Part shown: piece by piece, positions 548 to 18,709 of the stretch | How the letters are laid out: each line of letters begins with the position of its first letter | Numbering within the stretch: position 1 is the stretch's first letter | NCBI GenBank assembly: GCA_003504855.1 | Contig: DNZD01000299.1 | Coordinates: 1 to 18,709 of the forward strand | Reading direction: 5' to 3' | DNA: 18,709 nt | DNA from: Cytophagales bacterium | Lineage (GTDB): Bacteria > Bacteroidota > Bacteroidia > Cytophagales > Cyclobacteriaceae | Translations under genes and position numbers: made by a program | The notes under the pieces: generated by a model | The model's input: only the letters and a program-made list of their open reading frames with translations | The model's database searches: none | What the model was told of the DNA's origin: nothing

Positions 548-630
548 GCGGGTTTATTTTAAAGGTTGGAAGATAATGCATTTAGGGCCTTACAATCCAA
601 CAAATAGTATACAAAAGATCGCAATTCAGT

Positions 631-1431: not shown

Positions 1432-1441
1432 AAGTTAATGA

Positions 1442-1813: not shown

Positions 1814-1869
1814 AACCAATTTGGGCACAGTACGTTATTGAATGAGTTTAAAATAAGTAGCAAAAGAGC

Positions 1870-3939: not shown

Positions 3940-3956
3940 CAACTGGCCTAACCCTC

Positions 3957-3991
3957 AAAAAAGAGCACCGCTAAATGGTGCTCTTTTTTTT
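3957..3991 (+). terminator. Rho-independent terminator after ftsH
   Basis: Perfect 8-bp stem AGAGCACC (3962-3969) / GGTGCTCT (3977-3984) with a 7-nt loop, followed by an uninterrupted T run to 3991. A run of A's before the left arm can pair with the T run and lengthen the stem. It lies 17 nt after the ftsH stop codon. Confidence 0.93.
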
Positions 3992-4058
3992 GGCAGGTAG
4001 CACCTTGGATATTCCGAGACGGCCAATGGTCATTATAACTGATTCGTTGTCAAATACG

Positions 4059-4066
4059 TATCTTTG
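4059..4066 (+). promoter_or_regulatory. Bacteroidota -7 element TATCTTTG upstream of lpxH
   Basis: TATCTTTG matches the phylum consensus TAnnTTTG exactly and is followed by GCGGCC, a frequent continuation in this group. No clear TTG -33 element is seen at the expected 19-21 nt spacing. The predicted transcription start near 4073 lies downstream of the TTG at 4064, so it favours the ATG at 4085 as the lpxH start. Confidence 0.6.
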
Positions 4067-4084
4067 CGGCCGTCGCAACACCTC

Positions 4085-5643: not shown

Positions 5644-5679
5644 CAGTAAATTCAAGATTTAACGTTTTGTCAGGCTTAA
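5633..5679. terminator. Long hairpin shared by two convergent gene ends
   Basis: TTAAGCCCTGACA (5633-5645) pairs with TGTCAGGCTTAA (5668-5679): 12 bp with one bulged C and a 22-nt loop. It includes the stop codon of the plus gene (5641-5643) and the last sense codons of the minus gene ending at 5659. No T run follows on either strand, so a bidirectional terminator or RNA-stabilising role is inference. Confidence 0.5.
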
Positions 5680-6897
5680 CATGAAAATAGTATGTGAACC
5701 ATTGAGGGGATAACCCGTATTGGTCCCGGAAAATCCTGTTACCGTATCGTAACGAGCCTCTGCACTTATGGCGAGTCGATCACTCAGGCTGCTTTCAATA
5801 CCAAAGCCCACCCAAAATCCGATCAGATTGGCGTTATCCCAAGGATGCGTAACATCACTTACGAGGGTTGAATTGATAAGGGTTTCATGCGTTCTTGTTC
5901 CGGAAAAACCCGATGCCTGATAGGATGAAACTCCCCCCTTCAAAAAAGGTGTTATGTATCGCATAGGGATCAATACCTTTACTCCAAGACCTAAACGAAG
6001 GTAGTTCGCCTTCAGTTCAACCGACTCAGTTTCGGGATTACCTGTTATGCTGGTTCCCGATGCAAACCCATTGATGGTTTGCGAAAAATAGGTCGCCTCA
6101 GCATAGACGGAGAAAGCATTTGAGAGTCGGGGAAAAGTGAGAGAATACCAGCCACCAAAAACCGGAACATTAGATCCCGTAAATTTTGTCTGCCTATAAG
6201 TGGCCCTGGTGCCGGTTGCTTCGAAATCCGCAAATTGATACGAGGATGCATCAAATCCAATCAGTAGTCCAAAAGAACTGCGAACGGGTCTAATGACTTT
6301 ACCTGGTTTAAAAAGTATTGGAACTCCCTTGCAAGAATTGTACTTGCGGGTTAATTCCACAATTTTCTCATCATTGAGTATAATTGAATCCCAAGGAAAA
6401 CGAACAGTCTTGCAATCAGCAAACATAAAATTCATCTTTCCGCGTGACTTATTCATTCCAAATAAGTCTTGGGGGCCATTAAAGGTTAAATCTTGGGTAC
6501 CAAGGGAATCATGAACCATATACGTAGACTTTCGATAGCGGTATAGACTGGCCCGCGACATCAAAACGATTGATGCAAACACTCGCTTTGAATTACCCAA
6601 ATTATCCTTAATTGAAATTGACTGGAAGTACTTGAGTCCATCCATTCCATAGGCCTTAATGTCACCCGGATAATAGATCTTAGGGCTTTCCTTGGCAGAA
6701 GCAGCAAAGACGCAAAAATTAGCATTTGATTTCAGGCTTCTGTTTTCAATAAAACCACGAATCGTATCACCTTGCAATGGCACCAGATATCCCGGAACTT
6801 GATCAATTTGAGACCAACCTTCGAATCCAAAAAAACAAGCTACCCCAATCAATGATGCTTGTATAAGTCGTCTGCCTGAAATTCTCATGGTCTTCAT
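5659..6897 (-). CDS. Outer-membrane beta-barrel protein with N-terminal extracytoplasmic domain
   Basis: From ATG at 6897 the protein has 412 aa. It opens with a signal peptide (about 1-29: basic start, hydrophobic core, then GWSQ). A first domain to about residue 190 opens with LVPLQGDTIRGFIENRS, a pattern I associate with Bacteroidota surface proteins of unknown function. From about residue 200 the sequence becomes strands of alternating small/aromatic and polar residues separated by turns (for example VYAEATYFSQ, NYLRLGLGVKVLIP, LAISAEARYD). It ends in a barrel-like final strand, HTIFMLSLTKR. A longer frame starts at TTG 6945, but that TTG is better explained as the -33 promoter element. 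The gene converges on the plus-strand gene at 5643 with a 15-nt gap. Function is unknown; outer-membrane location is inferred from the strand pattern. Confidence 0.75.
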   Translation of the reverse strand: MKTMRISGRRLIQASLIGVACFFGFEGWSQIDQVPGYLVPLQGDTIRGFIENRSLKSNANFCVFAASAKESPKIYYPGDIKAYGMDGLKYFQSISIKDNLGNSKRVFASIVLMSRASLYRYRKSTYMVHDSLGTQDLTFNGPQDLFGMNKSRGKMNFMFADCKTVRFPWDSIILNDEKIVELTRKYNSCKGVPILFKPGKVIRPVRSSFGLLIGFDASSYQFADFEATGTRATYRQTKFTGSNVPVFGGWYSLTFPRLSNAFSVYAEATYFSQTINGFASGTSITGNPETESVELKANYLRLGLGVKVLIPMRYITPFLKGGVSSYQASGFSGTRTHETLINSTLVSDVTHPWDNANLIGFWVGFGIESSLSDRLAISAEARYDTVTGFSGTNTGYPLNGSHTIFMLSLTKR

Positions 6898-6914
6898 CTT
6901 GATTTGATCGTTCT

Positions 6915-6945
6915 CAAAATATACATCTCGAACTAACTGGTTCAA
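6915..6945 (-). promoter_or_regulatory. Bacteroidota-type promoter for the barrel gene at 6897
   Basis: On the minus strand TTG (6945-6943), then exactly 19 nt, then TATATTTTG (6923-6915), one T longer than the TAnnTTTG consensus. The predicted start site is near 6908, leaving a leader of about 10 nt before ATG 6897. This argues against the longer TTG-initiated reading frame. Confidence 0.6.
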
Positions 6946-7003
6946 TTAACCAAGGGAGAAATAAGTAAAATATACAACTAAAGATGTATCAAAGAGCTTG
7001 GTC

Positions 7004-7333
7004 TTATGTCCACGATCCGCCACGCGAGGGAATATGATGAGACTCCAGAAACTTAACAAAATTGGAATAACAGAAGTTGTCATTGAACCTGGACAACAGG
7101 CCTCGTACGATGCTTTCCTGATCATTGGCCACTCCCAATGCATTCGCCAATTGAACGAGATCTGCTTCGGCTACCGTGGTGGAGTATTCATAGTCGCTGT
7201 CGCCCCAGTATTCTTTTACACGCATTCCGATATCATACCCTTCTACCACCAGGGACCCATTTTCAAAGCCAGCCTCTACGGTGATTGAAATTTCATCATC
7301 CTTGTGGTGATATAAGACGGTTCGGTGCTCCAT
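7004..7333 (-). CDS. Small soluble protein of unknown function
   Basis: A 109-aa acidic protein without signal peptide or membrane segment. A conserved-looking core reads LVVEGYDIG, then EYWGDSDYEYS, and a C-terminal NFCYSNFVKFLESHHI with a possible helical end. I do not recognise a named domain. Its ATG (7333-7331) lies 3 nt after the stop codon of the NIPSNAP gene, with two tandem TGA codons between them, so translation is probably coupled. It is the last gene of the minus-strand run. The start choice is clear because no in-frame alternative lies close upstream. Confidence 0.7.
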   Translation of the reverse strand: MEHRTVLYHHKDDEISITVEAGFENGSLVVEGYDIGMRVKEYWGDSDYEYSTTVAEADLVQLANALGVANDQESIVRGLLSRFNDNFCYSNFVKFLESHHIPSRGGSWT

Positions 7334-7336
7334 TCA

Positions 7337-8110
7337 TCAATAATCCGAATAATCAGTAGGCCGCAGGAACCAAATGGTGATTTTAGAAATATTGTTCTGA
7401 TAGATCGGATTGCCCTTGAGGCTCTTCCACTGCGCGTCGTCTGTAAAGGCTTTCCAATGTTCATCCCTTGAAGCCTGGTTCGCGAAAGTAGTCATATACA
7501 TAAGATTGGGCATCTTGCCTCCTGCCAGCACATCTGCATAAAACACAGCATTAAATCCCAGTCGCTTGAACAGGGCTACTTCATCTCCTTCCACAAACAT
7601 ATTTACCTTGTTACGGTAGATTCTTTCTGTAGCACTTTCATAACTCCTGAGTTCGTAGACACGCTCCGAACGGGGTCCGGTAAGGGGGGATGGCTGCAGT
7701 GCCGGCGCTCCTTTGAAGGTCCGAAGCAGGATAGATTCCATTCGCTGGTAAGGAGGTTGGTTATAAGGTGCGTTGAGATAATCCTTTCCAGCCTCGTTGT
7801 ATGCCTTGTCTATGGTGATCAGGTCATTCATCTCCGAATAAAGTGTCAGATTCTTGTAGGGGATCAGCACATAAATCCGTTTGCCAAAGGTGGAATCCTG
7901 CTCTACCGGCTTGAATACTCCGATGTTCCTGATCCCGGCCCGGTGCAGGGTAGGCAACAATGCATTCTTCAAGTAATGATCAACCTGATCTTCCTGCGCC
8001 TTATTGGCAATACGATAAATTGTGAGGTCGTAGTACTCTTGTTTGAGAATCTGAGCTGTTGCCTGGGTTATCGTCAGGCATAAACAGAGGGAACAAAGCA
8101 AATAGCGCAT
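7337..8110 (-). CDS. Exported NIPSNAP-domain protein
   Basis: Two ferredoxin-like (dimeric alpha/beta barrel) NIPSNAP modules follow a signal peptide. From ATG 8110 the protein is about 257 aa with leader MRYLLCSLCLCLTITQATA. The first module begins YDLTIYRIANKAQEDQVDHYL; the second has the family signature VYELRSYESATERIYRNKV and continues to a strand ending TTFANQASRDEHWKAF. NIPSNAP proteins are widespread and their biochemical role in bacteria is unsettled. A longer frame opens at 8194, but its extra residues precede the signal peptide and overlap the response-regulator gene. ATG 8119 is a second possible start. The gene follows the response regulator by 58 nt on the same strand and may be its last co-transcribed target or a separate unit; TACCTTG (8132-8126) is a weak -7 element. 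Confidence 0.85.
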   Translation of the reverse strand: MRYLLCSLCLCLTITQATAQILKQEYYDLTIYRIANKAQEDQVDHYLKNALLPTLHRAGIRNIGVFKPVEQDSTFGKRIYVLIPYKNLTLYSEMNDLITIDKAYNEAGKDYLNAPYNQPPYQRMESILLRTFKGAPALQPSPLTGPRSERVYELRSYESATERIYRNKVNMFVEGDEVALFKRLGFNAVFYADVLAGGKMPNLMYMTTFANQASRDEHWKAFTDDAQWKSLKGNPIYQNNISKITIWFLRPTDYSDY

Positions 8111-8168
8111 GATGGTCATTTCCGGCAAGGTACTAAACAGAACTGAGTGCCAAAAAATTGGGGAGGCC

Positions 8169-8810
8169 TCATGCAATGCCATGGTGCATAACAAATGTGG
8201 TCAATTCTGCCACATTATGCACGCCGAGTTTTCTGAAAATATTCTTACGGTGCGTCTTCACTGTTTCTTCGGAGATAAAAATCCGCTCGCCGATCTCTGC
8301 GTTGCTGAGACCTTCCATAACCAGGCGAATGATTTGAAGCTCACGTTCACTGAGGCGCCATTCCTGTGCATCAGACTCCCGCTTAAAATCAGATATCCAG
8401 TCAAAGTACGATTTTCCACTGCTGACCCGCTCAATCGCGTTGATGAGGTCAATGGACCCTCGGCTCTTTAACAAACATCCGTCCGCCCCGGCTCTTAATA
8501 GCTGGTTGATGAATGTCTTTTCAGGATACATGGTAAGGATGATGACCCTGATTGCAGGAAATTGCTCTTTGATCATGGTGGTACACTGGATGCCATTGAT
8601 GACGGGCATATTGATATCCACGATCGCCAGTTCGGGTTGGTGTTTTCTGATAACGTCCAGGAACTGGCGACCATCATAGGCCACTCCCACCACTTCCCAT
8701 TCCTGTCTGGTCTTGAGAATTTCTTTCAGTCCATCCACAACAATCGGATGATCATCGGCGATGCAAATACGGAGGGGTTTATGGGTTTCCATGCGCAAGG
8801 GGGATTTCAA
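8169..8810 (-). CDS. NarL/FixJ-family response regulator (REC + LuxR HTH)
   Basis: A 213-aa DNA-binding response regulator. The receiver domain spans about 12-130 with the acidic pocket DD at 19-20, phospho-acceptor D65 in AIVDINMP, T93 and K115. The C-terminal LuxR/GerE helix-turn-helix covers about 153-210, including [18 protein letters not shown] and the recognition segment [17 protein letters not shown]. It overlaps the 3' end of the histidine kinase gene by 32 nt (14 nt if ATG 8792, METHKPLRI, is the true start). They are therefore almost certainly a cognate pair with coupled translation. Targets cannot be read from the sequence; the adjacent minus-strand genes are candidates. Confidence 0.95.
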
Positions 8811-9585
8811 TAATAAATGTGCTGCCTGCAGACGAAGATTCGATCCTTAACTCACCGTGAAGGCTCTCTACCCGGCTTCGGATGTTGTGCAATCCCATCG
8901 ATTTCTTGCTTGCTGCCTGCACGTCAAACCCGATACCATTATCTTCAAAAATAATGGTGATTTCATCATGGACCTGGGTGATTTCAAAGCGAATAGCGGT
9001 GGCCTGGGCATGCTTCAGTGTATTGGTAAAAAGCTCCTGGACAATGCGATACATATTGAGCAATGTCTCCCCATCATCGGCTGATGGTTTGACATCCACA
9101 ATGGAGGTTACCTTAATTTTACCGGAATTGGTTACTGCCTCACATAATTGCTCCACTGCCGCCGAAAGTCCAAAATTGCGCAACGTGCTGGAATCAAGGC
9201 TATGTGCGATACGGCGTACTTCCACTGAAAGCCGCTCCACCAGGTTATTGATCCGGTAGTTCAAGCTGTTCATCTCGTGCGCCGAAGGACCCATCAAGAC
9301 CAGGTCACTGTAAATCTTCAAGGTTGCCAGCAGGTTGCTCAGGTTATCGTGGACGTCAGCCGCTACTCGTTTGCGCTCCTTTTCCTGCCCTTGAATCAAC
9401 GCATAGGCAGACAGCAATTCCTGCTTCTGCAACAACTTTTCAATTTCACGATAAGCCCTTTCCTTCTTCATCAGTTTCTTCTGAAACAAAAAGACAAAGA
9501 GGATAATCGCCATCAACATGATCAGCATGGAGGCAGTGCCCAGCACCAGGGTCATCAGATCATTTACTGCTGTCTCGCCAGCCAT
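8779..9585 (-). CDS. HisKA_3-type sensor histidine kinase with one membrane helix and no sensor domain
   Basis: From ATG 9585 the protein is 268 aa. A single membrane helix (about 12-34) is followed by a coiled-coil linker (about 38-68). The dimerisation/phosphorylation segment [14 protein letters not shown] has phospho-acceptor H79. The ATPase domain carries the N-box [10 protein letters not shown] (184-193), DNGIGFD (215-221) and GLHNIRSR (231-238). This is the NarX/DegS-like class that partners with LuxR-type regulators. There is virtually no extracytoplasmic or cytoplasmic input domain, so sensing probably depends on another protein. The polytopic membrane protein encoded just upstream, which overlaps this gene by 22 nt, is the obvious candidate. 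A longer TTG/GTG-type frame to 9642 would lie wholly inside that upstream gene and is less likely. Confidence 0.92.
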
Positions 9586-10205
9586 AGTCCGTAGCCTGCA
9601 ATAGTGTTTTTGACGATGGTAGAAACCGATTGGATCACCCAACCATTGTGAAAGAATCCTTTCGCTTCTTCAGATAAAATTCGTGAACCCAGAATATAGG
9701 TGAATAAAGATCCGGCAAAATAAATGAGAAATCCGGTGTTAATAACAAATAAGGGATGGGTGGGCAAATGAATGTTCTCCAGATCATCATATAATTTGTA
9801 CAGGTAGCTAAGACCCAGGCACAGCAAGAAAAGAATACCGAACGTCCAGGCAAATGAGTTAAACTGTTCCAAAGGCTCTATGAAGACAGAGTTGAATAAA
9901 AAGAGGATCACCAACAAAACAGTCACCCAACGTCTCGGGCCCTTTGAATAAGTAATCCTTGCATAGAACTCATACAACAGGATTACCTCCACCGCTGCGA
10001 GCAGATGATACGCAGGCATATTAAAAATGCCCATCTCGGATGTAATCAAGGTGCCGATCATGATGAATCCACTCAGGTAGAAGTACCAACTCAGTATTAT
10101 AAAGGGATGCTTCCTGGGCACCACGAACAAACACAAGATCACGGGAAAGAGCGCCGTGACGTCCGAAATCGATGAGACCCAGATGTTGAAGGACTCCAAA
10201 TCCAT
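9564..10205 (-). CDS. Polytopic membrane protein, possible sensory partner of the adjacent kinase
   Basis: A 213-aa, very hydrophobic protein with six or seven predicted membrane helices (roughly 10-28, 35-55, 63-82, 92-108, 118-137, 152-172 and 187-209). It has short loops and no catalytic motif, and I do not recognise a named family. Its 3' end overlaps the histidine-kinase gene by 22 nt. Since that kinase has one helix and no input domain, this protein may supply signal perception within the membrane; that role is inference from arrangement. The start codon (10205-10203) lies inside a strong RNA hairpin (see 10199-10225). It sits 44 nt downstream of the CPNLC protein on the same strand. 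Confidence 0.75.
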   Translation of the reverse strand: MDLESFNIWVSSISDVTALFPVILCLFVVPRKHPFIILSWYFYLSGFIMIGTLITSEMGIFNMPAYHLLAAVEVILLYEFYARITYSKGPRRWVTVLLVILFLFNSVFIEPLEQFNSFAWTFGILFLLCLGLSYLYKLYDDLENIHLPTHPLFVINTGFLIYFAGSLFTYILGSRILSEEAKGFFHNGWVIQSVSTIVKNTIAGYGLWLARQQ

Positions 10206-10225
10206 TCCTAAAGATAGGAAGGATT
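10199..10225 (-). promoter_or_regulatory. mRNA hairpin enclosing the start codon of the membrane-protein gene
   Basis: In the minus-strand transcript AATCCTTCCTA pairs with TAGGAA-(T)-GGATT across a four-base UCUU loop. This gives 11 base pairs with one bulged U, and that U is the middle base of the AUG start codon. The only SD-like AGGA is within the stem. Such a structure should restrict ribosome entry unless it is opened by upstream translation or a regulator. Confidence 0.5.
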
Positions 10226-10249
10226 CAAAGCCCTTCCATCCGGCCCAGA

Positions 10250-10669
10250 CTAATTACACAGGTTCGGACATGGTCGCGAGTCCGACAAGATCAAAGCGGG
10301 ACCAAGAGCAGATTTCGCTTTTGGATGAGCTCCCCTGGATTTATCGGTTGACGAATGATGAACCGGATCGGGGTAGTCGTGACCATCCCGTGTGACCGGA
10401 ACCACCAGAATATCCTTTTTACCATGAGTCTTTGAATGATAAATTCTAAGTCCATTGATGTGTTTGGAGGAATCCGTCTCGTGCAGGTTGTGCTGATCGA
10501 TGCGTGCCAACAACTCCTTGATTTTCGCCAGCCCAAGTACATGTCCAAAAACATGGTCAGGATGATCGTGTTTGGGTTGCGGCTTTCCTTCATCGCTGAA
10601 GTACGCAGCCAGGTTTGCTTTTGCGGTTGTGGCATCTATGAAGGTGCCGGTGTGGGTGATCTCTGTCAT
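10250..10669 (-). CDS. Small His-rich protein with C-terminal CPNLC motif, function unknown
   Basis: A 139-aa protein with no signal peptide or membrane helix. The N-terminal half has a His/Asp-rich stretch (KHDHPDHVFGH, 33-43). A middle beta-rich block follows, HINGLRIYHSK then KKDILVVPVTRDG (70-96). It ends ILSDSRPCPNLCN, with C134 and C138 at the extreme C-terminus. I associate this layout (GLRIY block, ILVV block, terminal CPxxC) with uncharacterised Bacteroidota proteins, but cannot name a domain. The terminal CxxxC could bind metal or be modified; that is speculation. It lies between the holin-like gene (61 nt) and the membrane protein of the two-component unit (44 nt), so it bridges the two groups. 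The start ATG 10669 is the only good one. Confidence 0.72.
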   Translation of the reverse strand: MTEITHTGTFIDATTAKANLAAYFSDEGKPQPKHDHPDHVFGHVLGLAKIKELLARIDQHNLHETDSSKHINGLRIYHSKTHGKKDILVVPVTRDGHDYPDPVHHSSTDKSRGAHPKAKSALGPALILSDSRPCPNLCN

Positions 10670-10730
10670 GGGTTATGTTGATTTGGATGGTGCCTACTCT
10701 GTTAAAGGTTTTCAGCGTCCCCTCTTGGTT

Positions 10731-11240
10731 TCAGGATTTTTCGTTTCGCAGGTTTTGATGCATGGAACTGATGATATCGGTCTTGGTGGCACTTCCCTGG
10801 CTGGAGCCGAAATAATAACTGTAGATCTGGGAGAGAATTCCACTCAGAACGCCCAATACGTAGAGGATGATCTCCTTCTTGTCCGTATCATCCGGTTTCT
10901 TCCACTCCCCGAACATCAGCCAGGCAAATAATGCAAAGCACAAGAGGGTGCCACCCAACGCAAGGAAAGCAGACACATTCTTTGAAAGCCGGCTTGCCGT
11001 GGCACTGGTCTCCACCGCCGCATTACTAGCGCGCGCCGAAGCCACATCGCCGAGCATGGCCTTACGCTCTTCCAGGGATAGGTTAGCCATGTCCAGCTCA
11101 AACTGCCGCTCCGCCTTCTTCATCTCCATTTCCAATTGCATCTTCTCAGCCTTGGTCGTTACTACTTTGTCGAGCACCTTGCCAACAGAATTGACCAGTT
11201 CACTGGAACCTCCGGAAAATAGGTCTTTGATAAATCCCAT
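10731..11240 (-). CDS. Holin-like membrane protein (GTA_holin_3TM type)
   Basis: From ATG 11240 the protein has 169 aa. An N-terminal amphipathic and coiled-coil-like region (about 14-60, MQLEMEMKKAERQFELDMAN) is followed by two strong membrane helices (about 88-111 and 122-144) and a conserved-looking tail YYFGSSQGSATKTDII (142-156). This organisation matches the 'holin of 3TMs' family known from phages and gene-transfer-agent release, where the holin lets an endolysin reach the cell wall. The longer frame to 11390 overlaps the muramidase gene and its extra residues are not convincing. The start lies 7 nt downstream of the GH108 stop codon, so the two genes form an endolysin-holin pair in one transcript. 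The family call rests on motif recognition; pore formation is inferred. Confidence 0.75.
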   Translation of the reverse strand: MGFIKDLFSGGSSELVNSVGKVLDKVVTTKAEKMQLEMEMKKAERQFELDMANLSLEERKAMLGDVASARASNAAVETSATASRLSKNVSAFLALGGTLLCFALFAWLMFGEWKKPDDTDKKEIILYVLGVLSGILSQIYSYYFGSSQGSATKTDIISSMHQNLRNEKS

Positions 11241-11247
11241 ATCGGTA

Positions 11248-11778
11248 TTAGTTATTGATAGCCCTTGATATCCAACCAAAAAAGTATTTCTGACTTGTCG
11301 GACGTTTGTGCACAATGCCCACATAACGGACAACTTTGGCAACCGTAAATGCCGCCAGAAAAAACTCAGGATCCATGGTATTAATGGCATTCACGGTGCC
11401 GGGACCAATTACGCCATCGGGGTTAACACCCACTACATGCTGGGCCAGCGTCGAACTGGTAGCCACACCCGTGTTTACGGCAAAATCGAACACCGAAAAT
11501 GCGACATGGTCGTTGTCAATCTGGTCGCCTTGTACGCGGTCCCAGAAATTACTGCGGTAGAAATCACGGATCTTCGTCTGCAAGTCCATGTTCTTGTCCA
11601 TACTCAGTGGAAAGCCCGGTTGGAGCTTCATGGCATCCACGATCGGCCACCCTTCCCAGGTGCTGAATATCCGGCGCGCCACGCCACGATATGTTTCACC
11701 TCCGGGATCATCCGGATCATTGACGTACCCTCCTTCATTGAGGAGTGTTCGCTGCAAAGCCGCTTCAAAAGATGCCAT
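11248..11778 (-). CDS. GH108-family peptidoglycan muramidase (endolysin-like)
   Basis: A 176-aa protein of glycosyl hydrolase family 108, which cleaves the glycan strands of peptidoglycan as a lysozyme-like N-acetylmuramidase. The catalytic motif NEGGYVNDPDDPGGET (14-29) has catalytic E15 and is followed by RGV. DFAVNTG (98-104) is the second conserved block. The C-terminal part contains the peptidoglycan-binding repeat DGVIGPGTVNAIN (121-133). There is no signal peptide, as in holin-dependent endolysins. It begins 3 nt after the stop of the astacin-like protease gene and ends 7 nt before the holin-like gene, so translation of all three is probably coupled. No phage head, tail or packaging genes accompany it, which makes ordinary prophage lysis less likely. 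Confidence 0.9.
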   Translation of the reverse strand: MASFEAALQRTLLNEGGYVNDPDDPGGETYRGVARRIFSTWEGWPIVDAMKLQPGFPLSMDKNMDLQTKIRDFYRSNFWDRVQGDQIDNDHVAFSVFDFAVNTGVATSSTLAQHVVGVNPDGVIGPGTVNAINTMDPEFFLAAFTVAKVVRYVGIVHKRPTSQKYFFGWISRAINN

Positions 11779-11781
11779 GGT

Positions 11782-12609
11782 TCAGGGTTTTGGATAAATC
11801 TTTGCGATGAACGCCTTGTCCTTTTCAGATAAATGATAATTCATCGGTGTGCCAACATGGTTCCTGAAAAGTTCGGCCGGGAACTGATACAACATAATCG
11901 AGTGTCTGTCGAAGATGGTTTCGTTGATTCCCCGGGGCGAGTACTTCTGCAGGATGTTGGCGTCGATGGTGGCCCTGTCCCAGTTGTTGGGTGGGCCTGA
12001 AAACTGGGCGTAAACTTTAGCTTTGTCCCACTGCAGGTTCTCGGTGGGTGACTGATGCTCGTGTACGCAACCAAGGGCGTGACCAAATTCGTGAACCACT
12101 ACCCGCTCATATTCGCGGTCATCGGTATCATCCTTTAGCCAGCCAAAATTCATGGTAGCCTTGTTCCTGGGGAAATATTGTGCATTCAAGGCATCTCTTC
12201 CTACAGCCGACCATGAGCCAGTATCAGCCTTAAAGGAGATCCGGATTACTTCATCCTTCGTCGTGACAAATGACAAATGAATGTTTGCGTACTGCTCCCA
12301 AATTTTCGCCTTGTGAATCACCTTCGCGCGTTGCACGTCTGAGCCATCCAGAAACCTGCACTTCAATGTAGAACCTGCCGGCCAGGCCTTGGACGTAATA
12401 ATGGCCATGTGCTGTGCCGGCACTACCCCCATGGGGTCAATACCCTCGAATGCAGCGCGTAAAGATTTTGCACCCATTGATTTGAGCACAACCGACTTGT
12501 GCATCTCATGGAGGACGGCTTCGGGCGAATCCTTTTCCAGCGGAATAATCCGATCATAGCAAATCCGCAGAGCCGGATTTGCCTTTGAGGTGATCTTCTT
12601 CATGAACAT
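11782..12609 (-). CDS. Astacin-like zinc metalloprotease (M12A-type metzincin)
   Basis: A 275-aa protease. The extended metzincin zinc motif HEFGHALGCVHEHQSP begins at H173 (ligands H173, H177, H183; catalytic E174), and the Met-turn is SIMLYQFP (237-244, M239), the expected spacing for astacins. Residues 1-80 precede the catalytic domain and may be a propeptide. This region contains no hydrophobic segment, so no classical signal peptide is seen, although the family normally works outside the cell. The start at ATG 12609 (or M3 six bases later) is the only sensible one. It lies 66 nt downstream of the aspartic protease and 3 nt upstream of the GH108 gene. Protease class is firm; export route and substrate are unknown. 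Confidence 0.9.
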   Translation of the reverse strand: MFMKKITSKANPALRICYDRIIPLEKDSPEAVLHEMHKSVVLKSMGAKSLRAAFEGIDPMGVVPAQHMAIITSKAWPAGSTLKCRFLDGSDVQRAKVIHKAKIWEQYANIHLSFVTTKDEVIRISFKADTGSWSAVGRDALNAQYFPRNKATMNFGWLKDDTDDREYERVVVHEFGHALGCVHEHQSPTENLQWDKAKVYAQFSGPPNNWDRATIDANILQKYSPRGINETIFDRHSIMLYQFPAELFRNHVGTPMNYHLSEKDKAFIAKIYPKP

Positions 12610-12675
12610 CTAATGTCTTGGGCCTACTCTTCTTCGGATTTTCGGCGTCCTCCGTTCGACAAGTATTATTCTCAC

Positions 12676-13899
12676 TTACACCTGTCTCTTGATGCTGGCA
12701 AATTTTATTACGCCGGTCCGACTGGCCGACCGGTCGAAAATCGTATAGTAGTTATTCAACAAGGGTAAACCGAAAATGGACTGCACCCCTTCAGGACCAA
12801 TCTGGAACACGGCTCGTCCAGGTGCCGGGTAGTTGACCTGCCAGTAGGTGTCCGGTCTGACAGTGAGCAGCGCATCCTTATGGACACCTTCAAATCTGAA
12901 GTGAACGTCAGGCCAATCTTCAAGGTCTAATTCACTTACAGGCACGCTGCCCTTCTGCTGAGCCAGATGGATGAGGCGTGAAAAGGCAGGATTCAATGAA
13001 TCCAATGAATCGGTTATAGCGTGGTACACATCACTTGCGAGTGCGAGATAGCTGGTGCCACTGTCGATGATTGAATTTGACACCTGGTAGGGAGCCAAAT
13101 GGACCGGCAGTTCCCTGGCCTGAATGATGCGGCCCTCTCCGACCTGCACGGTCCTGAGATGCGTATTGTAGTATACATCGTGTAACACCTTCACCTCGGT
13201 GAACGGACCTGCGTACAAGTCATGTTGCTCTTCCCCGCCACCTAAAATAAAGTAACCTTGATTTAGCGGATCTGTTGCCACCCGTTCGCTGATATGCACC
13301 CAGGAACGAAGCGTGTAGAAGGCAAACTTGTTGGCTACGAGACCAAGCCTTTCAATTTCATCAAAGTAGGGTTCTATGGAGATTGAAGGAATGTTCTGTT
13401 TATTCACTAACCCACCAAACTGCACGAGGAATTTTTTAAAGCTATGCGCCGGAAATGACCAGGGATACGTGGCAGGAGGAGAAATGTGATGACGATAGAA
13501 ATAACCGGAAAAATCGTAGGCGTTGTTCAGCACATGGTAGGCAAGTCCCAGAATACCATCCACGCCTGTGAAGCTCCCGTGCTGCTGAATATCAATGATG
13601 GCTACAGGTGTTCGTGGGAGGGTGATTTCATGTTCATCGATACCCATGCGCAAACTTGTTTTTACCACCGGACCTGCCCATCCACCAGACCCATACTGGA
13701 TTAATTGCGCCAATGGGGTGGGTTTTAGGTGAGCATCAAGCGTGGGGTCGTATGCCGATGGCGTGACCGCGAGGGTACTACTGCCGGTGTCCAGAATAAC
13801 ATTGGCCACCCTGCCCTGACTTCCGACTCTTATTCTTACCGTGTAGTCGTTTCCATCATAGATATTAGTTATGGGAATACGAACGGAAGGCTTTGTCAT
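12676..13899 (-). CDS. Pepsin-like aspartic protease (family A1) without signal or propeptide
   Basis: A 407-aa bilobal aspartic protease of the pepsin type. The first catalytic triplet DTGSS is at 37-41, the flap tyrosine is probably Y69 in QYGSGGWAG, GILGLAY is at 115-121, and the second catalytic motif DSGTS is at 279-283. The C-terminal FGLPLLNNYYTIFDR is the usual A1 'G-x-x-F-L-R-x-Y-x-V-F-D' region. The family is mainly eukaryotic; bacterial members exist but are scarce. The mature fold starts almost at the N-terminus (PITN-Y-YTVRIRVG), so there is neither signal peptide nor N-terminal propeptide. The start ATG 13899 is preceded by a good promoter. It is the first gene of a run that continues with a metalloprotease, a muramidase and a holin-like protein. 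Confidence 0.92.
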   Translation of the reverse strand: MTKPSVRIPITNIYDGNDYTVRIRVGSQGRVANVILDTGSSTLAVTPSAYDPTLDAHLKPTPLAQLIQYGSGGWAGPVVKTSLRMGIDEHEITLPRTPVAIIDIQQHGSFTGVDGILGLAYHVLNNAYDFSGYFYRHHISPPATYPWSFPAHSFKKFLVQFGGLVNKQNIPSISIEPYFDEIERLGLVANKFAFYTLRSWVHISERVATDPLNQGYFILGGGEEQHDLYAGPFTEVKVLHDVYYNTHLRTVQVGEGRIIQARELPVHLAPYQVSNSIIDSGTSYLALASDVYHAITDSLDSLNPAFSRLIHLAQQKGSVPVSELDLEDWPDVHFRFEGVHKDALLTVRPDTYWQVNYPAPGRAVFQIGPEGVQSIFGLPLLNNYYTIFDRSASRTGVIKFASIKRQV

Positions 13900-13918
13900 T
13901 TAGAATTTGGAAGGCCAG

Positions 13919-13949
13919 CAAAACTTAAAACCACCATCTACTTAGGCAA
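13919..13949 (-). promoter_or_regulatory. Bacteroidota-type promoter of the protease/lysis cassette
   Basis: On the minus strand TTG (13949-13947), 19 nt, then TAAGTTTTG (13927-13919), the TAnnTTTG element with one extra T. The same geometry occurs upstream of the barrel gene at 6897. The expected start site is near 13912, about a dozen nt before ATG 13899. Confidence 0.6.
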
Positions 13950-14094
13950 TACCTATGGGAAGGGATCGTACTACCGTGCTGAGGGTATTCCTGAAGTCCC
14001 GAATTCCGGGCCTGTCCACACTGAAGGGTGGTGCAGGATACCGAAAAATGAAATGAAGTTTTTAGTTAGATTAGGGTAACAAACCCAAAAATTT

Positions 14095-14679
14095 ATGAAG
14101 AAGCCCCTATTGAGCATTTTTCTTTCCTTAGTAGTGTTTGGTGCCAATGCCCAGATTTCCCGTGGCAGTTTTTTACTGGGTGGCAGTATTGGCTTTAACT
14201 CCATGAGTTCCAAGTACATTTCCAATGGCGTAACGACGCCGCAGGGTACAACAACAACGTTTAGCGTTATTCCTCAGGCTGGTTACTTTTTATCAGACCA
14301 AATTGCCGCAGGAATCGGATTAACAATCAATAGTATTTCCTACAAGGCTAACGGTGCCTCCACCAGTTTGAACAGCTCCCGATTTCTATTTTCACCTTTT
14401 GTCAGGTACTATTTTCCTCCAAAGGTCTACTTCCAGGGAGGGGTGGATATAGGATCTGCCTCCGCATCATCAACCGGAAATGGTGGGAGCACCACCAATT
14501 CACTTTTTGGATGGACCCTGCTTGCTGGCTATCCTGTATTTCTCAATGAATCGATTGCCATTGAACCACAATTGGGATACAATTCGCTGACCAACAAAAT
14601 AGACGCTGGTAACAAGACTACAGATGGAAACTTCTTTATCCGGGTGGGATTTCAAATCTACTTTCGCCCGGGAAAGTAA
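14095..14679 (+). CDS. Small outer-membrane beta-barrel protein (OmpA/OmpW-like barrel)
   Basis: A 194-aa protein with a typical signal peptide (MKKPLL..., cleavage after about ANA at residue 20). It is built of about eight amphipathic strands, for example GSFLLGGSIGFNSMSS, FSVIPQAGYFLSDQIAAGIGL, RFLFSPFVRYYF and WTLLAGYPVFL, and ends in a strand with aromatic residues, FFIRVGFQIYF. This matches the generic Bacteroidota 'outer membrane protein beta-barrel' family of unknown function. It is divergent from the protease cassette, with 195 nt between the two start codons. I found no convincing TAnnTTTG element for it. Co-regulation with the divergent cassette is possible but not shown. Confidence 0.82.
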   Translation: MKKPLLSIFLSLVVFGANAQISRGSFLLGGSIGFNSMSSKYISNGVTTPQGTTTTFSVIPQAGYFLSDQIAAGIGLTINSISYKANGASTSLNSSRFLFSPFVRYYFPPKVYFQGGVDIGSASASSTGNGGSTTNSLFGWTLLAGYPVFLNESIAIEPQLGYNSLTNKIDAGNKTTDGNFFIRVGFQIYFRPGK

Positions 14680-14717
14680 CGGACAAGTTCAATTGAATCA
14701 TTTATAGGAACTCACTG

Positions 14718-14737
14718 TACCCAGGAATCATTGGGTA
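14718..14737. repeat. Inverted repeat TACCCA-N8-TGGGTA
   Basis: Perfect 6-bp inverted repeat 38 nt after the barrel gene stop. It could be a weak hairpin ending that transcript, but no T run follows directly (TAGATTTTAC), so an operator role for the next gene is equally possible. Confidence 0.4.
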
Positions 14738-14781
14738 TAGATTTTACTTTGCTCTAAACGGATCGGGGCCCTGCTTAAAAC

Positions 14782-14845
14782 TGTTCATTTTTGAACATCT
14801 TTGTACAAAAGAGGCCACTTCATTGCCCGAAAACCCCATTTTCGG
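14782..14845. promoter_or_regulatory. Cluster of dyads upstream of the sigma-54 regulator gene
   Basis: Three perfect symmetric elements: TGTTCA-TTTT-TGAACA (14782-14797), TTTGTACAAA (14800-14809) and CCGAAAA-CCCCA-TTTTCGG (14827-14845). A further palindrome TTCAATTGAA (14688-14697), in the context GTTCAATTGAATC, resembles the first dyad (GTTCA...TTGAA). Their position upstream of a candidate sigma-54 promoter suits activator-binding sites; binding is inferred only. Confidence 0.4.
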
Positions 14846-14858
14846 ACACCCTGAGCAC

Positions 14859-14874
14859 TGGCACAGTTTTTCCA
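14859..14874 (+). promoter_or_regulatory. Candidate sigma-54 (-24/-12) promoter of the NtrC-type regulator
   Basis: TGGCAC (14859-14864), five bases, then TTCCA (14870-14874). The consensus is TGGCAC-N5-TTGCW, so the -24 box is perfect and spacing correct, with one mismatch at the usually conserved G of the -12 GC pair. The expected transcript start near 14885 is about 20 nt upstream of the GTG start codon. Confidence 0.45.
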
Positions 14875-14904
14875 CTATAAAAGGCAACCGTAAACCTATT
14901 CCCC

Positions 14905-16269
14905 GTGAACGAAGGCAAAATTCTCATGATTGACGACGACGAAGATGTGCTCCTCGCCGCCAAAATGTTGCTGAAAAAATACAACTACCAGGTCATCATC
15001 GAGAAAAATCCGAACAAGATCCCGTTCCTCCTCAACAATGATACCTATGATGTGATCCTGCTGGACATGAACTTCAGCAAGGACACTACCTCCGGCAAGG
15101 AGGGGTTTGAATGGCTCGGAAAGATCAAAGAAAAAGATCCCAATGCGGTCGTCATCATGATCACTGCCTTTGGCGATGTGGAGATGGCGGTACGTGCGCT
15201 GAAAGACGGGGCGACTGATTTTATTCTGAAGCCCTGGCAGAACGAAAAACTGATTGCTACGATCTCCACGGCCATCAAACTGAAGCGCTCCTACAACGAA
15301 GTAGACAAACTGCGTAAGGCCAAGCAAATGCTGGAAGAACAAATCTCACAGCCTTTCCGGGACATTGTGGGAAACAGTGGCGCCATGCAGGAAGTATATT
15401 CTCTCATTGACCGTGTTGCCAAAACCGACGCCAACGTATTAATCCTGGGTGAAAACGGTACAGGAAAAGAGCTGGTTGCACGCGCCATCCACCAAAAGTC
15501 ACTGCGCAGTGATGGTTCATTTGTGGCGGTCGATATGGGCGCCATTACAGAAACGTTGTTTGAGTCTGAATTATTCGGACATAAGAAAGGTGCCTTTACC
15601 GACGCACGCGAAGATCGCCCGGGTCGCTTCGAATTAGCCAATGGAGGCACACTATTTCTCGATGAGATCGGAAACCTGAGTCTGAGTTTGCAGAGCAAGT
15701 TGCTCAGTGCACTGCAGTCACGGAAAGTGACACGGGTGGGCTCCAATAATGCAGTTGACGTAGACATCCGATTGATTTGCGCCACCAACATGCCGATTGA
15801 ACAAATGGTAAAAGAAGGGAAGTTCAGACAAGATCTCTTGTACCGGATCAATACAGTGGAAGTGCACATCCCTCCGCTCGGTGACCGCGTAGACGACATC
15901 CCCATGCTCGCCAATCACTTCCTTGATTACTATAGCAAAAAGTACCGAAAGGAAGTGCTCTCCATTTCACCAGAAGCTATCAACAAACTCAAGAAATATG
16001 CGTGGCCCGGAAATGTGCGTGAGTTACAACATGCTATTGAGCGTGCTGTCATCATGGCCGATTCCGCCACTTTACAGGAAAGTGATTTTCTTTTTAGCAG
16101 GAAGTCCGAGTCGACAGCTTCTGTTGACACCCTCAATCTGGATGAAGTAGAAAAGGCAGCTGTTGTGAAAGCCCTTCAACTTCATAGTGGCAATATCTCC
16201 AAAGCCGCGGATGAACTGGGCCTCACACGGGCAAGTTTGTACAGGAGGATGGAGAAGTATGGGCTTTGA
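14905..16269 (+). CDS. NtrC-family sigma-54-dependent response regulator (REC-AAA+-Fis HTH)
   Basis: A 454-aa enhancer-binding protein. The receiver domain (about 4-125) has the acidic pocket DDD at 10-12, D54 as phospho-acceptor and K109. The AAA+ domain (about 152-385) has Walker A GENGTGKE (182-189), the sigma-54 contact loop GAFTDA (229-234, a variant of GAFTGA) and Walker B TLFLDEIG (249-256). The Fis-type helix-turn-helix is at about 426-451 (ISKAADELGLTRASLYRRM). The start is GTG 14905. It would activate RNA polymerase with sigma-54 after phosphorylation, most likely by the kinase encoded at 16877. A candidate sigma-54 promoter upstream suggests autoregulation. The stop codon TGA is shared with the first unit of a heptanucleotide array. 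Confidence 0.95.
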   Translation: MNEGKILMIDDDEDVLLAAKMLLKKYNYQVIIEKNPNKIPFLLNNDTYDVILLDMNFSKDTTSGKEGFEWLGKIKEKDPNAVVIMITAFGDVEMAVRALKDGATDFILKPWQNEKLIATISTAIKLKRSYNEVDKLRKAKQMLEEQISQPFRDIVGNSGAMQEVYSLIDRVAKTDANVLILGENGTGKELVARAIHQKSLRSDGSFVAVDMGAITETLFESELFGHKKGAFTDAREDRPGRFELANGGTLFLDEIGNLSLSLQSKLLSALQSRKVTRVGSNNAVDVDIRLICATNMPIEQMVKEGKFRQDLLYRINTVEVHIPPLGDRVDDIPMLANHFLDYYSKKYRKEVLSISPEAINKLKKYAWPGNVRELQHAIERAVIMADSATLQESDFLFSRKSESTASVDTLNLDEVEKAAVVKALQLHSGNISKAADELGLTRASLYRRMEKYGL

Positions 16270-16337
16270 GTGGTGAGTAGTAAGTAGTAAGTGGTAAGTG
16301 GTAAGTGGTAAGTGGTGAGTGGTGAGTGGTGAGTGGT
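16268..16337 (+). repeat. Heptanucleotide tandem array, 10 copies of (G/A)AGTRGT
   Basis: Ten head-to-tail 7-bp units: GAGTGGT, GAGTAGT, AAGTAGT, four AAGTGGT, three GAGTGGT. The first unit begins at the G of the TGA stop codon of the regulator gene (16267-16269). A related array in inverse orientation lies at 16829-16877. Confidence 0.93.
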
Positions 16338-16423
16338 TTTTATATGGAAAATAAGACAATTATTCCTGTGGCAATAATGATCATAAGAACCATATTCGGC
16401 AACACAAGCAATGTGGGCACATT

Positions 16424-16810
16424 ATGCGGTTCGCCAATGACTATTCCGACCTGGAAGTATATAAAGCATCCATTGCTCTATCAGATATGATATTCGATAT
16501 CTCATTGGCATTTCCCAGATCCGAAATCTATTCCCTTACGGATCAAATTCGCAGATCTTCCAGGTCTATCGGGGCACAGATTTCAGAAGCCTGGGCCAAG
16601 CGAAAGTATGAAAAGCACTTTATCAGCAAAACCACCGATGCTATGGCTGAAGCTTATGAGACCCGGCACTGGATTGAAACAGCCAGAAGGTGTGGGTATA
16701 TCAGCAACGAAGAGTCATCTTCATTGAGTGATCAGTGCGCTGCCATCATCAAAATGCTATCTTCCATGATCACCAAATCACAGCTATTTTGCAAACCAAT
16801 TATCAACTAA
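16424..16810 (+). CDS. S23-type four-helix-bundle protein (23S rRNA intervening-sequence family)
   Basis: A 128-aa all-helical protein. The N-terminal signature DLEVYKASIALSDMIFDI, then LTDQIRRSSRSIGAQISEAWAKRK (about 38-61), and a final helix ending in IIKMLSSMITK, are typical of the S23/IVP four-helix-bundle family. The family is named from genes in intervening sequences of 23S rRNA, and is structurally related to the Avd accessory protein of diversity-generating retroelements. Its molecular role is unknown; basic patches suggest nucleic-acid contact. Here it stands alone, outside rRNA and with no reverse transcriptase nearby. It starts at ATG 16424, 86 nt after the left heptad array, and ends 18 nt before the right one. 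No clear promoter is seen in those 86 nt. Confidence 0.9.
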   Translation: MRFANDYSDLEVYKASIALSDMIFDISLAFPRSEIYSLTDQIRRSSRSIGAQISEAWAKRKYEKHFISKTTDAMAEAYETRHWIETARRCGYISNEESSSLSDQCAAIIKMLSSMITKSQLFCKPIIN

Positions 16811-16828
16811 CCTGTCATCCTCTTTAGA

Positions 16829-16877
16829 ACTACTTACTAATTACTTCTCACCACTTACTACTTACCACCTACCACCT
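16829..16877 (-). repeat. Heptanucleotide array, inverse orientation, about 7 degenerate copies
   Basis: Seven consecutive 7-mers: ACTACTT, ACTAATT, ACTTCTC, ACCACTT, ACTACTT, ACCACCT, ACCACCT, mostly reverse complements of the AAGTRGT units at 16268-16337 with some decay. The last T is the first base of the TTG start codon of the histidine kinase. Confidence 0.85.
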
Positions 16878-18232
16878 TGAAAGATATCAACTGGCGTACT
16901 CCCCTCATGACCCGACTCCTGATCCTCACGGGATCGGTGCTCGTGTTTGGGTATGTTTTCGCCAAGTCCTCTTCGGTGTTGATTTTGTTAGCCATTATCG
17001 TCGCCACGGGATTTCAGTTAATCCGCTTTGCCCATATCACAGAAGGCCTTGAAGTACCCGACCATGAACCGGCTCCTGCTCCGGATTTCAACTCGATCTA
17101 TTTTGACGATGCCTCCCAGACTTTCAAGACTTCAAGTCACCACCCTGGCGTCCTGAAACACTGTAGCCGGATGAATGAAACCCTGGTGGCAGGCAGGAAG
17201 GAAAGAGATTCCGACTATCAATTTTTCAGAAATATTGTTCAGCATGTGGGCATCGGGTTGCTGACGTTCCGAAAGGATGGCGCTGTGCAGATTATCAACA
17301 GTGCTGCCCGCCGGCTATTGCGGGTCAATCAAATTCAGAATATCACAGAACTCAACCGACCAAGTCCCACGCTCGTCGAGGCGTTTCAGAAATTGAAGAC
17401 CGGAGGACGAGAGCTCATTAATCTTAAGATCGGTGATGATACCGTACAGTTATCGGTGTTTGCCATCGAACTGACCTTGCGCGGAGAGGAGATCAAACTT
17501 ATCTCCATGAGCAACATCCAGAGTGAACTTGAGGAGAAAGAGATGGAGGCATGGCAGAACCTGGTTCGCGTGCTCACACACGAAATCATGAACTCTGTCA
17601 CCCCCATTTCTTCCCTGGCAGGCACCGTTGAAGAGGCGTTGCTCAATGCCGTGCAGCATCCGGAGACGCCCATTCATGGGGATGACCTCGCAGATATGCA
17701 TTTATCGTTGCAGACCATCAGCCGGCGCAGCGAAGGATTGATCCGGTTTGTAAAAGAATTCAGAAACCTGACACAGGTGCCACAACCGCTGATGAGTGAA
17801 ATGGCTATCCAACCCTTGCTGGAGGAAATGGCAGTATTGCACAAGAAAGAACTGAGTGACCGGAACATTGAAATTGCTGTTCATATTGATCCCCCACAAC
17901 TCACTGCGCTGGCCGACAAGAATATGATCGAGCAGGTGCTCATCAACCTTATCAAGAATGCTATTCAGGCCTTTGATGAACAGGCTAACAAACGTATCGA
18001 ACTCCGCGCGTACACCAGTGAAAAGGGCAGGCCCATCATCAGCGTCACCGACAATGGACCGGGTATCGATCCGGAGGCCCTGGAGAAAATCTTCATCCCG
18101 TTCTTCTCCACCAAAAAGACCGGTTCTGGCATCGGATTAAGTCTTTCCCGGCAAATCATGAGAGTTCATGAGGGTCGGATCACCGTGAAGTCCGAATTGG
18201 GGAAAGGAACCGAATTCAGCCTCAGGTTTTGA
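16877..18232 (+). CDS. Sensor histidine kinase (two TM, PAS-like, HisKA + HATPase), probable partner of the NtrC-type regulator
   Basis: A 451-aa kinase. Two membrane helices (about 10-28 and 32-50) form a short hairpin with almost no periplasmic loop. A PAS-like domain (about 115-215, [20 protein letters not shown]) is followed by phospho-acceptor H235 in [14 protein letters not shown]. The ATPase domain has the N-box NLIKNAIQA (N361), DNGPGI (392-397) and [12 protein letters not shown] (from 416). This is the NtrB-like class that works with sigma-54 activators, consistent with the regulator gene upstream. The start is a TTG at 16877 directly fused to the end of the heptad array. The alternative ATG 16907 would remove INWRTPL, a segment that looks native, so TTG is preferred with caution. 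Confidence 0.92.
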
Positions 18233-18277
18233 GACGGGTAGTTCGCCATTACTACACCCAAATTATTCCAAATTCAC

Positions 18278-18285
18278 TACCTTGG
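18278..18285 (+). promoter_or_regulatory. Weak -7-like element TACCTTGG upstream of the acyl carrier protein
   Basis: TACCTTGG is one T short of the TAnnTTTG consensus and is positioned 9-16 nt before the ATG. No clear -33 TTG at standard spacing is seen. It also covers the TTG that would start a longer reading frame, supporting ATG 18294. Confidence 0.35.
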
Positions 18286-18293
18286 TGCCCATT

Positions 18294-18533
18294 ATGCCAG
18301 ACATCCAGAAGAAAATCACTTCCATCCTTACCGACAAGCTCGGTATTCCAGATTCAGAGATCACCCCGGATGCCAGTTTCGTAAAAGACCTGGGTATTGA
18401 CTCATTGGATTATGCAGAGTTGGTGATGGAATTTGAGCAGACCTTCGACATCAAAATCCCGGATGATGATGCAGAGAAAATGCAGACCATCGCCCAGGCA
18501 GTGAAGTATATCGAAGGAAAAATAGCAAAGTAG
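18294..18533 (+). CDS. Acyl carrier protein
   Basis: A 79-aa acidic helical protein from ATG 18294. The phosphopantetheine attachment motif is GIDSLDYAELVMEFE with S37; helix III and IV residues follow in IPDDDAEKMQTIAQAVKYIEG. It carries acyl chains as thioesters on the prosthetic arm. The usual bacterial AcpP motif is GADSLDTVEL, so the GIDSLDYAEL variant leaves open whether this is the housekeeping AcpP or a second, pathway-specific carrier. No fabF-like start is seen in the 176 nt that follow, so the common acpP-fabF pairing is not shown here. I therefore leave the symbol blank. The longer TTG frame (18282) is rejected. Confidence 0.92.
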   Translation: MPDIQKKITSILTDKLGIPDSEITPDASFVKDLGIDSLDYAELVMEFEQTFDIKIPDDDAEKMQTIAQAVKYIEGKIAK

Positions 18534-18536
18534 TCA

Positions 18537-18569
18537 CCCGCTTTGCTCCTCGCAGCGGGCTGTAGCCCG
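18537..18569 (+). repeat. Overlapping GC-rich inverted repeats after the acyl carrier gene
   Basis: CCCGCT (18537-18542) can pair with AGCGGG (18554-18559), or CGGGC-TGTA-GCCCG (18556-18569) can form instead; the two are mutually exclusive. No T run follows. They may end the transcript or belong to a dispersed GC-rich repeat. Confidence 0.4.
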
Positions 18570-18610
18570 GATGGCGCAATTACCCCCACGCCTGACAGGC
18601 TATTATCGTT

Positions 18611-18638
18611 GGTAACCGGATATCATATTTTGGTTACC
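18611..18638. repeat. Inverted repeat GGTAACC-N14-GGTTACC
   Basis: Perfect 7-bp arms (18611-18617 and 18632-18638) with an AT-rich 14-nt loop, in a stretch (18534-18709) where I see no gene on either strand. The sequence CATCTTTTCGATTTT downstream is T-rich but not a clean terminator tail. Confidence 0.4.
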
Positions 18639-18709
18639 GCATCTTTTCGATTTTCAACGAACATCGTACTGGAACTGCCCGCAAAATCAAGTAGGTTTGA
18701 AGGCTAACG

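Follow-up and report, generated by a model that had tools for sequence, protein, structure and literature searches.

How proteins without a signal peptide leave a Gram-negative cell is an open question, and it is raised by a locus in an 18,709-nt stretch of DNA from a Cytophagales bacterium (Cyclobacteriaceae; GenBank assembly GCA_003504855.1, contig DNZD01000299.1, positions 1 to 18,709; the whole stretch is termed the window). On its minus strand, genes for two proteases that lack signal peptides, an A1 pepsin-like protease and an astacin/myroilysin-type metzincin, lie in a row with those for a GH108 muramidase and a holin-like protein, together with two copies of the DUF805b RNA element and a regulatory module of four genes encoding a small protein (ORF5), a multi-helix membrane protein (TM), a histidine kinase (HK) and a response regulator (RR). 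The transcription order is A1, DUF805b, metzincin, GH108, holin-like, DUF805b, ORF5, TM, HK and RR, and the best organism-named homologues of the A1 and holin-like proteins come from Cyclobacteriaceae. By analogy with the toxin and holin/endolysin switch of Yersinia entomophaga, we tentatively read the locus as one that may store leaderless hydrolases in the cytoplasm and free them by lysing a fraction of the cells, a reading that we favour although we place it somewhat below an even chance.

The four adjacent minus-strand genes of the initial annotation agree with the open reading frames (ORFs) and Pfam matches, and its gaps of 66 nt (A1/metzincin), 3 nt (metzincin/GH108) and 7 nt (GH108/holin-like) are all correct; the two DUF805b elements and the downstream regulatory module had been overlooked. 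The 66-nt gap contains the first DUF805b copy, which sets the A1 gene apart from the metzincin–GH108–holin trio, and the trio is flanked by DUF805b elements on both sides. Because its genes are so closely spaced and the first element sits 11 nt before the metzincin start codon, the trio looks like one unit. The promoter previously placed in front of the row persists as a loose Bacteroidota-type −33/−7 match (13949 to 13921), where a sigma-70 scan finds none.

The leaderless proteases and the lysis-type pair

The A1 protein carries both catalytic motifs (DTGS and DSGT), and two D[TS]G[ST] motifs are present in 119 of its 120 listed homologues, the closest of which is up to 87% identical. Signal peptides were judged throughout by a home-made hydropathy rule instead of SignalP, with one L242 copy reassigned by eye to the signal-peptide group. 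By this crude test an N-terminal signal is absent from the window A1 protein and from 119 of the 120 listed homologues; 116 of the 120 start with Met. The A1 proteins closest to that of the window have their first catalytic Asp close to the N-terminus, at about residue 35, and the sequence therefore leaves no room for a prosegment, while over all 120 listed homologues its position has a median of 62 and a maximum of 194, some being N-terminally extended. The window protein is in both respects like the shewasins, bacterial A1 pepsin homologues with neither signal peptide nor prosegment, one of which, shewasin D, has been shown to build up in the cytoplasm (PMC4814920, in excerpt), whereas the window gene is linked to lysis-type genes. 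One A1 homologue (P0006, 59%) and one holin-like homologue (P0249, 70%) are both recorded on a JGI contig 5426 bases long, which may be a single one.

The zinc motif HExxHxxGxxH is found in the window metzincin (HEFGHALGCVHEH) and in 119 of 120 listed homologues, and the signal peptide of a secreted astacin is lacking in the window protein and in all 120, of which 118 start with Met. Since the signal is missing across both sets of homologues, wrong start calls are excluded and the A1 and astacin proteins are, by this test, leaderless families; the absence of signal peptides described initially for the two window proteins is thus family-wide. The nearest solved relative of the metzincin is myroilysin (5gwd, E 3.5e-51), an M12A protease of Myroides, and the predicted structure (predicted local distance difference test, pLDDT, 91) returned myroilysin for all six top Foldseek matches (E 9e-24, 38–42% identity). 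The NCBIfam name NF050131 was not used for the metzincin (137 of 650 bits, below cut-off). Ahead of the catalytic domain, Cys17 in CxDR[IV]IP is almost invariant, with the strict motif matched by 106 of the 120 listed homologues; of the remaining 14, five start beyond the motif region and nine have, by eye, the Cys in a variant of the motif. Myroilysin, which has the catalytic domain and possibly the N-terminal Cys as a switch in common with the window protein, contains a cysteine switch (PMC9848320, in excerpt), and this precedent together with the conservation of Cys17 makes plausible a latent cytoplasmic metzincin held by such a switch. Unlike the window family, myroilysin is a secreted protease (PMC4377995 and PMC6331793, in excerpt). 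Plasmid pART37 of Paenibacillus sp. 37 carries an astacin relative with two S8 peptidases and a trypsin-like protease as neighbours; the crude test found no signal peptide in any of the four (L346, 2342–6828).

The two proteases could instead act inside the cell, in stress or self-destruction and perhaps against phage, with the muramidase and holin finishing the cell and enzyme release not being selected. The cytoplasmic location of shewasin D agrees with such a role, as do the matches to PADLOC defence models of a caspase (L155) and a subtilase (L202) in other DUF805b loci, while a scan of six window proteins gave no match to a defence model and myroilysin, nearest to the metzincin among solved structures, is secreted. 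We regard an intracellular role as somewhat unlikely, and identity as an anti-phage system was rejected on the negative PADLOC result for the six proteins.

The muramidase scores over the cut-off with both Pfam domains (PF05838, 82.9 bits; PF09374, 46.8 bits), has the NEGGY motif and matches the endolysin family phrog_315 (E 1.9e-36); 538 of 50,697 phage records match it. The NCBIfam name NF040573 (holin-associated muramidase) was set aside at 56 of 240 bits, below cut-off. For the holin-like protein, the two predicted transmembrane helices of the initial annotation stand and its holin matches are moderate. The top PHROG family is phrog_1544, of unknown function (E 8.9e-13), followed by phrog_3427, 'holin' (E 7.6e-5), and the top Pfam match is EamA (E 1.2e-4, under cut-off). 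The cut-off of PF11351 (GTA_holin_3TM) is missed with 10.7 versus 24.8 bits (E 0.8); relatives in L070 and L072 score 18.5 and 18.8 bits. It has 286 homologues, of which the closest listed is up to 97% identical and 5 of 120 listed carry a precomputed PF11351, and the sole match in the 50,697 phage records is a protein of phage DSL-LC04 annotated 'holin' (E 5e-15). Its sequence had been said to end in YYFGSS, after which 22 further residues follow. A holin role is likely rather than proven, because in L072 a different holin family, PF05105, adjoins the pair.

Matches to the holin-like protein occur in 9 of 31 GH108 loci of GTDB genomes (L070–L075, L077, L078 and L080), and 12 of 395 genomes searched with it were matched, one of which has the GH108–holin pair (G386, L254). 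The pair is present in the viral contigs L001, L002 and L004 and in a prophage, L072, where its neighbours include a tmRNA and an integrase-like gene; a recombinase-like gene is close to it in L073, and no phage genes were seen by eye around it in L070, L071, L074 and L075, the last of which starts 590 bases upstream of GH108. The pair is a phage-type one that is not confined to phage-like surroundings. No phage structural gene was recognised among the window ORFs (by eye, with PHROGs run on six window proteins only), and prophage ownership was rejected for the window on these grounds, phage-type though the pair is.

Table 1. Features of the locus in the window
Feature	Position	Strand	Evidence
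Weak promoter-like −33/−7 match ahead of A1 gene	13921–13949	minus	pattern match only
A1 pepsin-like protease	12676–13899	minus	PF00026 E 4e-18; DTGSS and DSGTS
DUF805b RNA no. 1	12621–12655	minus	RF02914, 38.2 bits
Astacin/myroilysin-type metzincin	11782–12609	minus	PF00413 E 1.2e-6; PF01400 E 1.1e-5
GH108 muramidase (endolysin type)	11248–11778	minus	PF05838 E 2.5e-23; PF09374 E 3.3e-12
Holin-like protein, two predicted transmembrane helices	10731–11240, ATG at 11240	minus	phrog_3427 match
DUF805b RNA no. 2, heads regulatory module	10691–10725	minus	RF02914, 42.0 bits
ORF5, small protein, C-terminal CPxxC	10250–10669	minus	11-sequence family alignment
TM, multi-helix membrane protein of module	9564–10205	minus	family alignment
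Histidine kinase, HisKA_3/HATPase	8779–9642 longest frame, likely start 9555	minus	PF02518 E 8e-13; PF07730 E 2e-5
Response regulator, LuxR/NarL-type DNA-binding domain	8169–8810	minus	PF00072 E 4.4e-26; PF00196 E 3.8e-21

The DUF805b element and the ORF5-TM-HK-RR module

The DUF805b motif, reportedly first described by Weinberg and colleagues, is listed in Rfam only as Cis-reg. Both window copies exceed the gathering score of 35.6 (RF02914, clan CL00115) and retain the hairpin and the AGAGUAGG tail. Of 198 Bacteroidota genomes sampled, 67 contain the element (40 of them above the cut-off), and none of 14 control genomes does. Over 94 sites, which contain 54 distinct arm pairs, the arms pair in 87% of positions compared with a mean of 53% and a maximum of 60% in 2,000 shuffles, which argues that DUF805b is a folded RNA and more than a DNA site. 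At the 87 sites with a gene, the distance to the start codon has a median of 21 nt and ranges from 9 to 62.

In 72 DUF805b loci, eight of the 348 leaderless proteins are proteases of secreted type; 40 control loci have none among 302 (Fisher p 0.0065; 7 vs 0, p 0.012, without L123, which is the same locus as L075 and had been fetched for its GH108). The 72 loci consist of 13 hand-picked ones from G001–G008 and stretches around 59 of 87 over-cut-off sites, and all but one of the control loci were drawn from genomes of the DUF805b survey. The eight were recognised by motif as papains (L113, L117, L122 and L123), a caspase (L155), astacins (L173 and L175) and a subtilase (L190). The papain assignments in L075 and L117, like those of the caspase and the L190 subtilase, are confirmed by Pfam, which adds two subtilases missed by motif (L202 and L146). 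Motif matches in L112 (glycosyltransferase-like), L120, L329 (aminoacyl-tRNA synthetase-like) and L282 were discarded by eye. Similar genomes being non-independent, we judge the co-occurrence of proteases with DUF805b to amount to about five separate cases. Among the astacins, 16 matches in 395 genomes divide into eight leaderless and eight signal-bearing proteins, with DUF805b directly upstream of three of the former and none of the latter.

In Pedobacter cryoconitis, DUF805b precedes proteins of about 78–105 amino acids (L112, 3001–5312, with four in a row; L115, L121, L163 and L164) that form a multi-copy family, most members of which begin MARSWYAY or similar. Three copies in G007, at 584-base spacing and each before a similar signal-peptide protein, represent a tandem duplication (L111, 11512–12717), and in G099 an SpvB/TcdB-like gene comes after an operon that has DUF805b at its head and encodes three unknown leaderless proteins (L204/L340, 127–6818).

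The second DUF805b copy of the window heads the ORF5-TM-HK-RR module, which recurs as a set in other loci. In Pedobacter cryoconitis DSM 14825 (L114), the module and DUF805b adjoin each other. In the ORF5 family (11 sequences) the only invariant residues are those of a C-terminal CPxxC motif (C134, P135 and C138); ORF5 has no Pfam match and, with a weak model (pLDDT 73), no Foldseek match at E ≤ 0.001, and the TM protein likewise has no Pfam match. A TM profile gave 85 matches in 41 of the 198 Bacteroidota genomes. Eight of them are no more than 5 kb from a listed DUF805b site where 0.49 would be expected (p 5e-8; 150 listed sites, weaker ones left out, even spread assumed), and five of 82 do so against 0.45 expected when three profile seeds that had been chosen by DUF805b are omitted (p 1e-4). 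The profile without those seeds finds TM in 6 of the 72 DUF805b loci versus 0 of the 40 control loci, and 27 of the 198 genomes contain both (TM 41, DUF805b 67; Fisher p 2.4e-6, kinship not corrected for). By pattern, 13 of 14 TM loci inspected have no clear DUF805b nearby, so the module evidently also works without the element. The available excerpts of the literature on DUF805 revealed no link between DUF805b and either this module or leaderless hydrolases. Between ORF5 and TM, the minus strand contains a hairpin of 7 pairs with a T-containing stretch after it (10217–10237), a possible attenuator; a scan found hairpins of this kind to be no commoner than chance.

Other hydrolases adjoin the module elsewhere: a DUF805b-led leaderless subtilase in L202, a patatin-like gene (by eye) in L293, and patatin and Tle1-like phospholipases (assigned by Pfam) with a papain in L334, L336 and L337. 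These two phospholipase families include injected effectors, and their position beside the same module, like the SpvB/TcdB-like gene downstream in L204, would suit an exit of the leaderless proteases by some other non-Sec route (contractile injection, vesicles or a system like type VI secretion), with the GH108–holin pair merely trimming the wall. Neither the window nor the DUF805b loci inspected by eye showed a tail, sheath or type VI secretion gene, no aimed search having been made, and we consider such a route improbable.

Recurrence of the set and the lytic-release reading

The linkage of A1 or astacin proteases with GH108 and holin genes had initially been put forward as something to be sought in other genomes. 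It was not borne out as a conserved one, the exact set not being refound in 100 GH108 loci, in the 395 genomes searched by astacin and by holin or in the 198 searched by A1, and a conserved four-gene set was rejected after the viral contigs and plasmids searched had also failed to yield it. In the viral contigs, the astacin search gave two stretches that matched the pattern and no relatives; in plasmids, A1 gave none and astacin was found in 15 records, with the four-gene set absent among the neighbours in the three inspected. The nearest parallel is L075, from a Chitinophagaceae metagenome-assembled genome, in which DUF805b (539–575) is followed by GH108, a holin-like gene, a second DUF805-like element just before 1886 (with longer arms, by eye), and an M19-type peptidase and a papain that are both leaderless. 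The row in L341 (G065, 2978–10169; the same locus as L155) comprises two DUF805b elements and genes for a leaderless caspase, for five unknown proteins and for an N-acetylmuramidase (PF11860). The combination of leaderless protease, wall hydrolase and DUF805b is therefore met more than once in these sequences, with differing families. Of the system proposed initially, the leaderless families, the lysis-type pair and a parallel in L075 remain, and the conserved linkage of the exact set does not.

A chance neighbourhood, in which the lysis remnant of a prophage, leaderless proteases and a regulatory module lie together without common function, would account for the failure to refind the set and for the prophage and viral relatives of the GH108–holin pair (L001 and L072). 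It accords less well with the lack of a recognised phage structural gene in the window, with the 3- and 7-nt gaps and the bracketing of the trio by two DUF805b elements, and with L075, where the order DUF805b, GH108, holin, leaderless peptidases is repeated. Moreover, the holin-like and A1 genes seem to be maintained, since both have close homologues. We consider chance an unlikely explanation.

Lytic release, the reading that we prefer, would proceed as follows. The gene order, the leaderless families, the RNA elements and the linkage of the module are directly seen, and a cue, co-expression, latency, holin action and enzyme release are inferred. The ORF5-TM-HK-RR module would sense a cue and raise transcription, and the mRNAs that start with the DUF805b hairpin would be translated together. 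The metzincin and probably the A1 protease would accumulate, the former perhaps kept inactive by Cys17, as its conservation and the example of myroilysin suggest. The holin-like protein would then, judging by homology, let GH108 reach the wall, and the bursting cell would shed enzymes that serve as public goods or weapons. The scheme would resemble type 10 secretion, with a captured phage lysis pair, other proteins and another regulator.

Several results weigh against lytic release. None of the 100 GH108-fetched loci (L001–L100) has an A1 or astacin match, and neither GH108 nor holin was found near any of the 16 astacin matches in the stretches fetched from the 395 genomes; A1 gave no match in the 198 genomes, where an empty answer without a positive match shows little. 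The gene table of L346, which is incomplete, shows no lysis gene within about 6 kb of the leaderless protease cluster. The three DUF805b-led leaderless astacins (L173, L175 and L247) have common gene neighbours and represent about one event. Papains (PF00112) occur in 76 of the 198 genomes, and since just one has a listed DUF805b site no more than 10 kb away, the link of proteases to the element appears to be lineage-bound and not general. A signal peptide or N-terminal membrane helix is present in 48 of 87 first genes led by DUF805b and 39 are leaderless; the element thus looks like a general leader, with leaderless genes as one part of its use, and not a release-specific one. Confidence in the holin label of the window protein is moderate. 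Lytic exit from a Gram-negative cell normally requires a spanin, and none was recognised by eye among the window ORFs, where no search aimed at spanins was made. This and the cytoplasmic shewasin D are the strongest points against release.

A broader proposal is that DUF805b and the ORF5-TM-HK-RR module jointly mark out a Bacteroidota programme, not described before, in which some cells would build up leaderless hydrolases (proteases, phospholipases and wall hydrolases) and then lyse by means of captured phage genes, the DUF805b hairpin being a post-transcriptional switch that ties cargo to exit. We hold this to be doubtful, and clearly less probable than lytic release at the window locus.

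Comparison with known release systems

Research on type 10 secretion, as represented in the excerpts available, has been mostly on Yersinia, Salmonella and Clostridioides, and no release system of the present kind is described in the available excerpts of the literature on holins, endolysins and proteases in Bacteroidetes or on lysis-dependent release. If lytic release is true, type 10 secretion would be extended to a Bacteroidota form that has its own two-component system, and DUF805b would gain a first functional setting. The linkage of DUF805b to TM-HK-RR is a testable regulatory prediction independent of the release reading.

In phages, GH108 (phrog_315) and a PF11351-like holin form an adjacent pair of the same families, and in the order seen in L001, L002, L004 and L072. 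Unlike these, the window pair seems to form one unit with the astacin gene that follows DUF805b, and no phage gene was recognised in its surroundings. As in type 10 secretion, a holin (its label being of moderate confidence) and a peptidoglycan hydrolase occur together outside an active prophage, 7 nt apart. In Yersinia entomophaga, toxins and the holin/endolysin cassette YenLC are switched on together by RoeA, and a subpopulation lyses (PMC10847048 and PMC10101115, in excerpt). Both that system and the window locus as we read it would use a phage-type holin and wall hydrolase for non-phage proteins of the cell's own. RoeA is PhoB-like, and the window likewise has a switch of the response-regulator type, in its case the TM-HK-RR module together with an RNA leader. 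The endolysin of Y. entomophaga is PepB, whereas the window has GH108 and no spanin recognised by eye. The cargo differs as well, being Tc toxins in Y. entomophaga and, at the window locus, what would be proteases.

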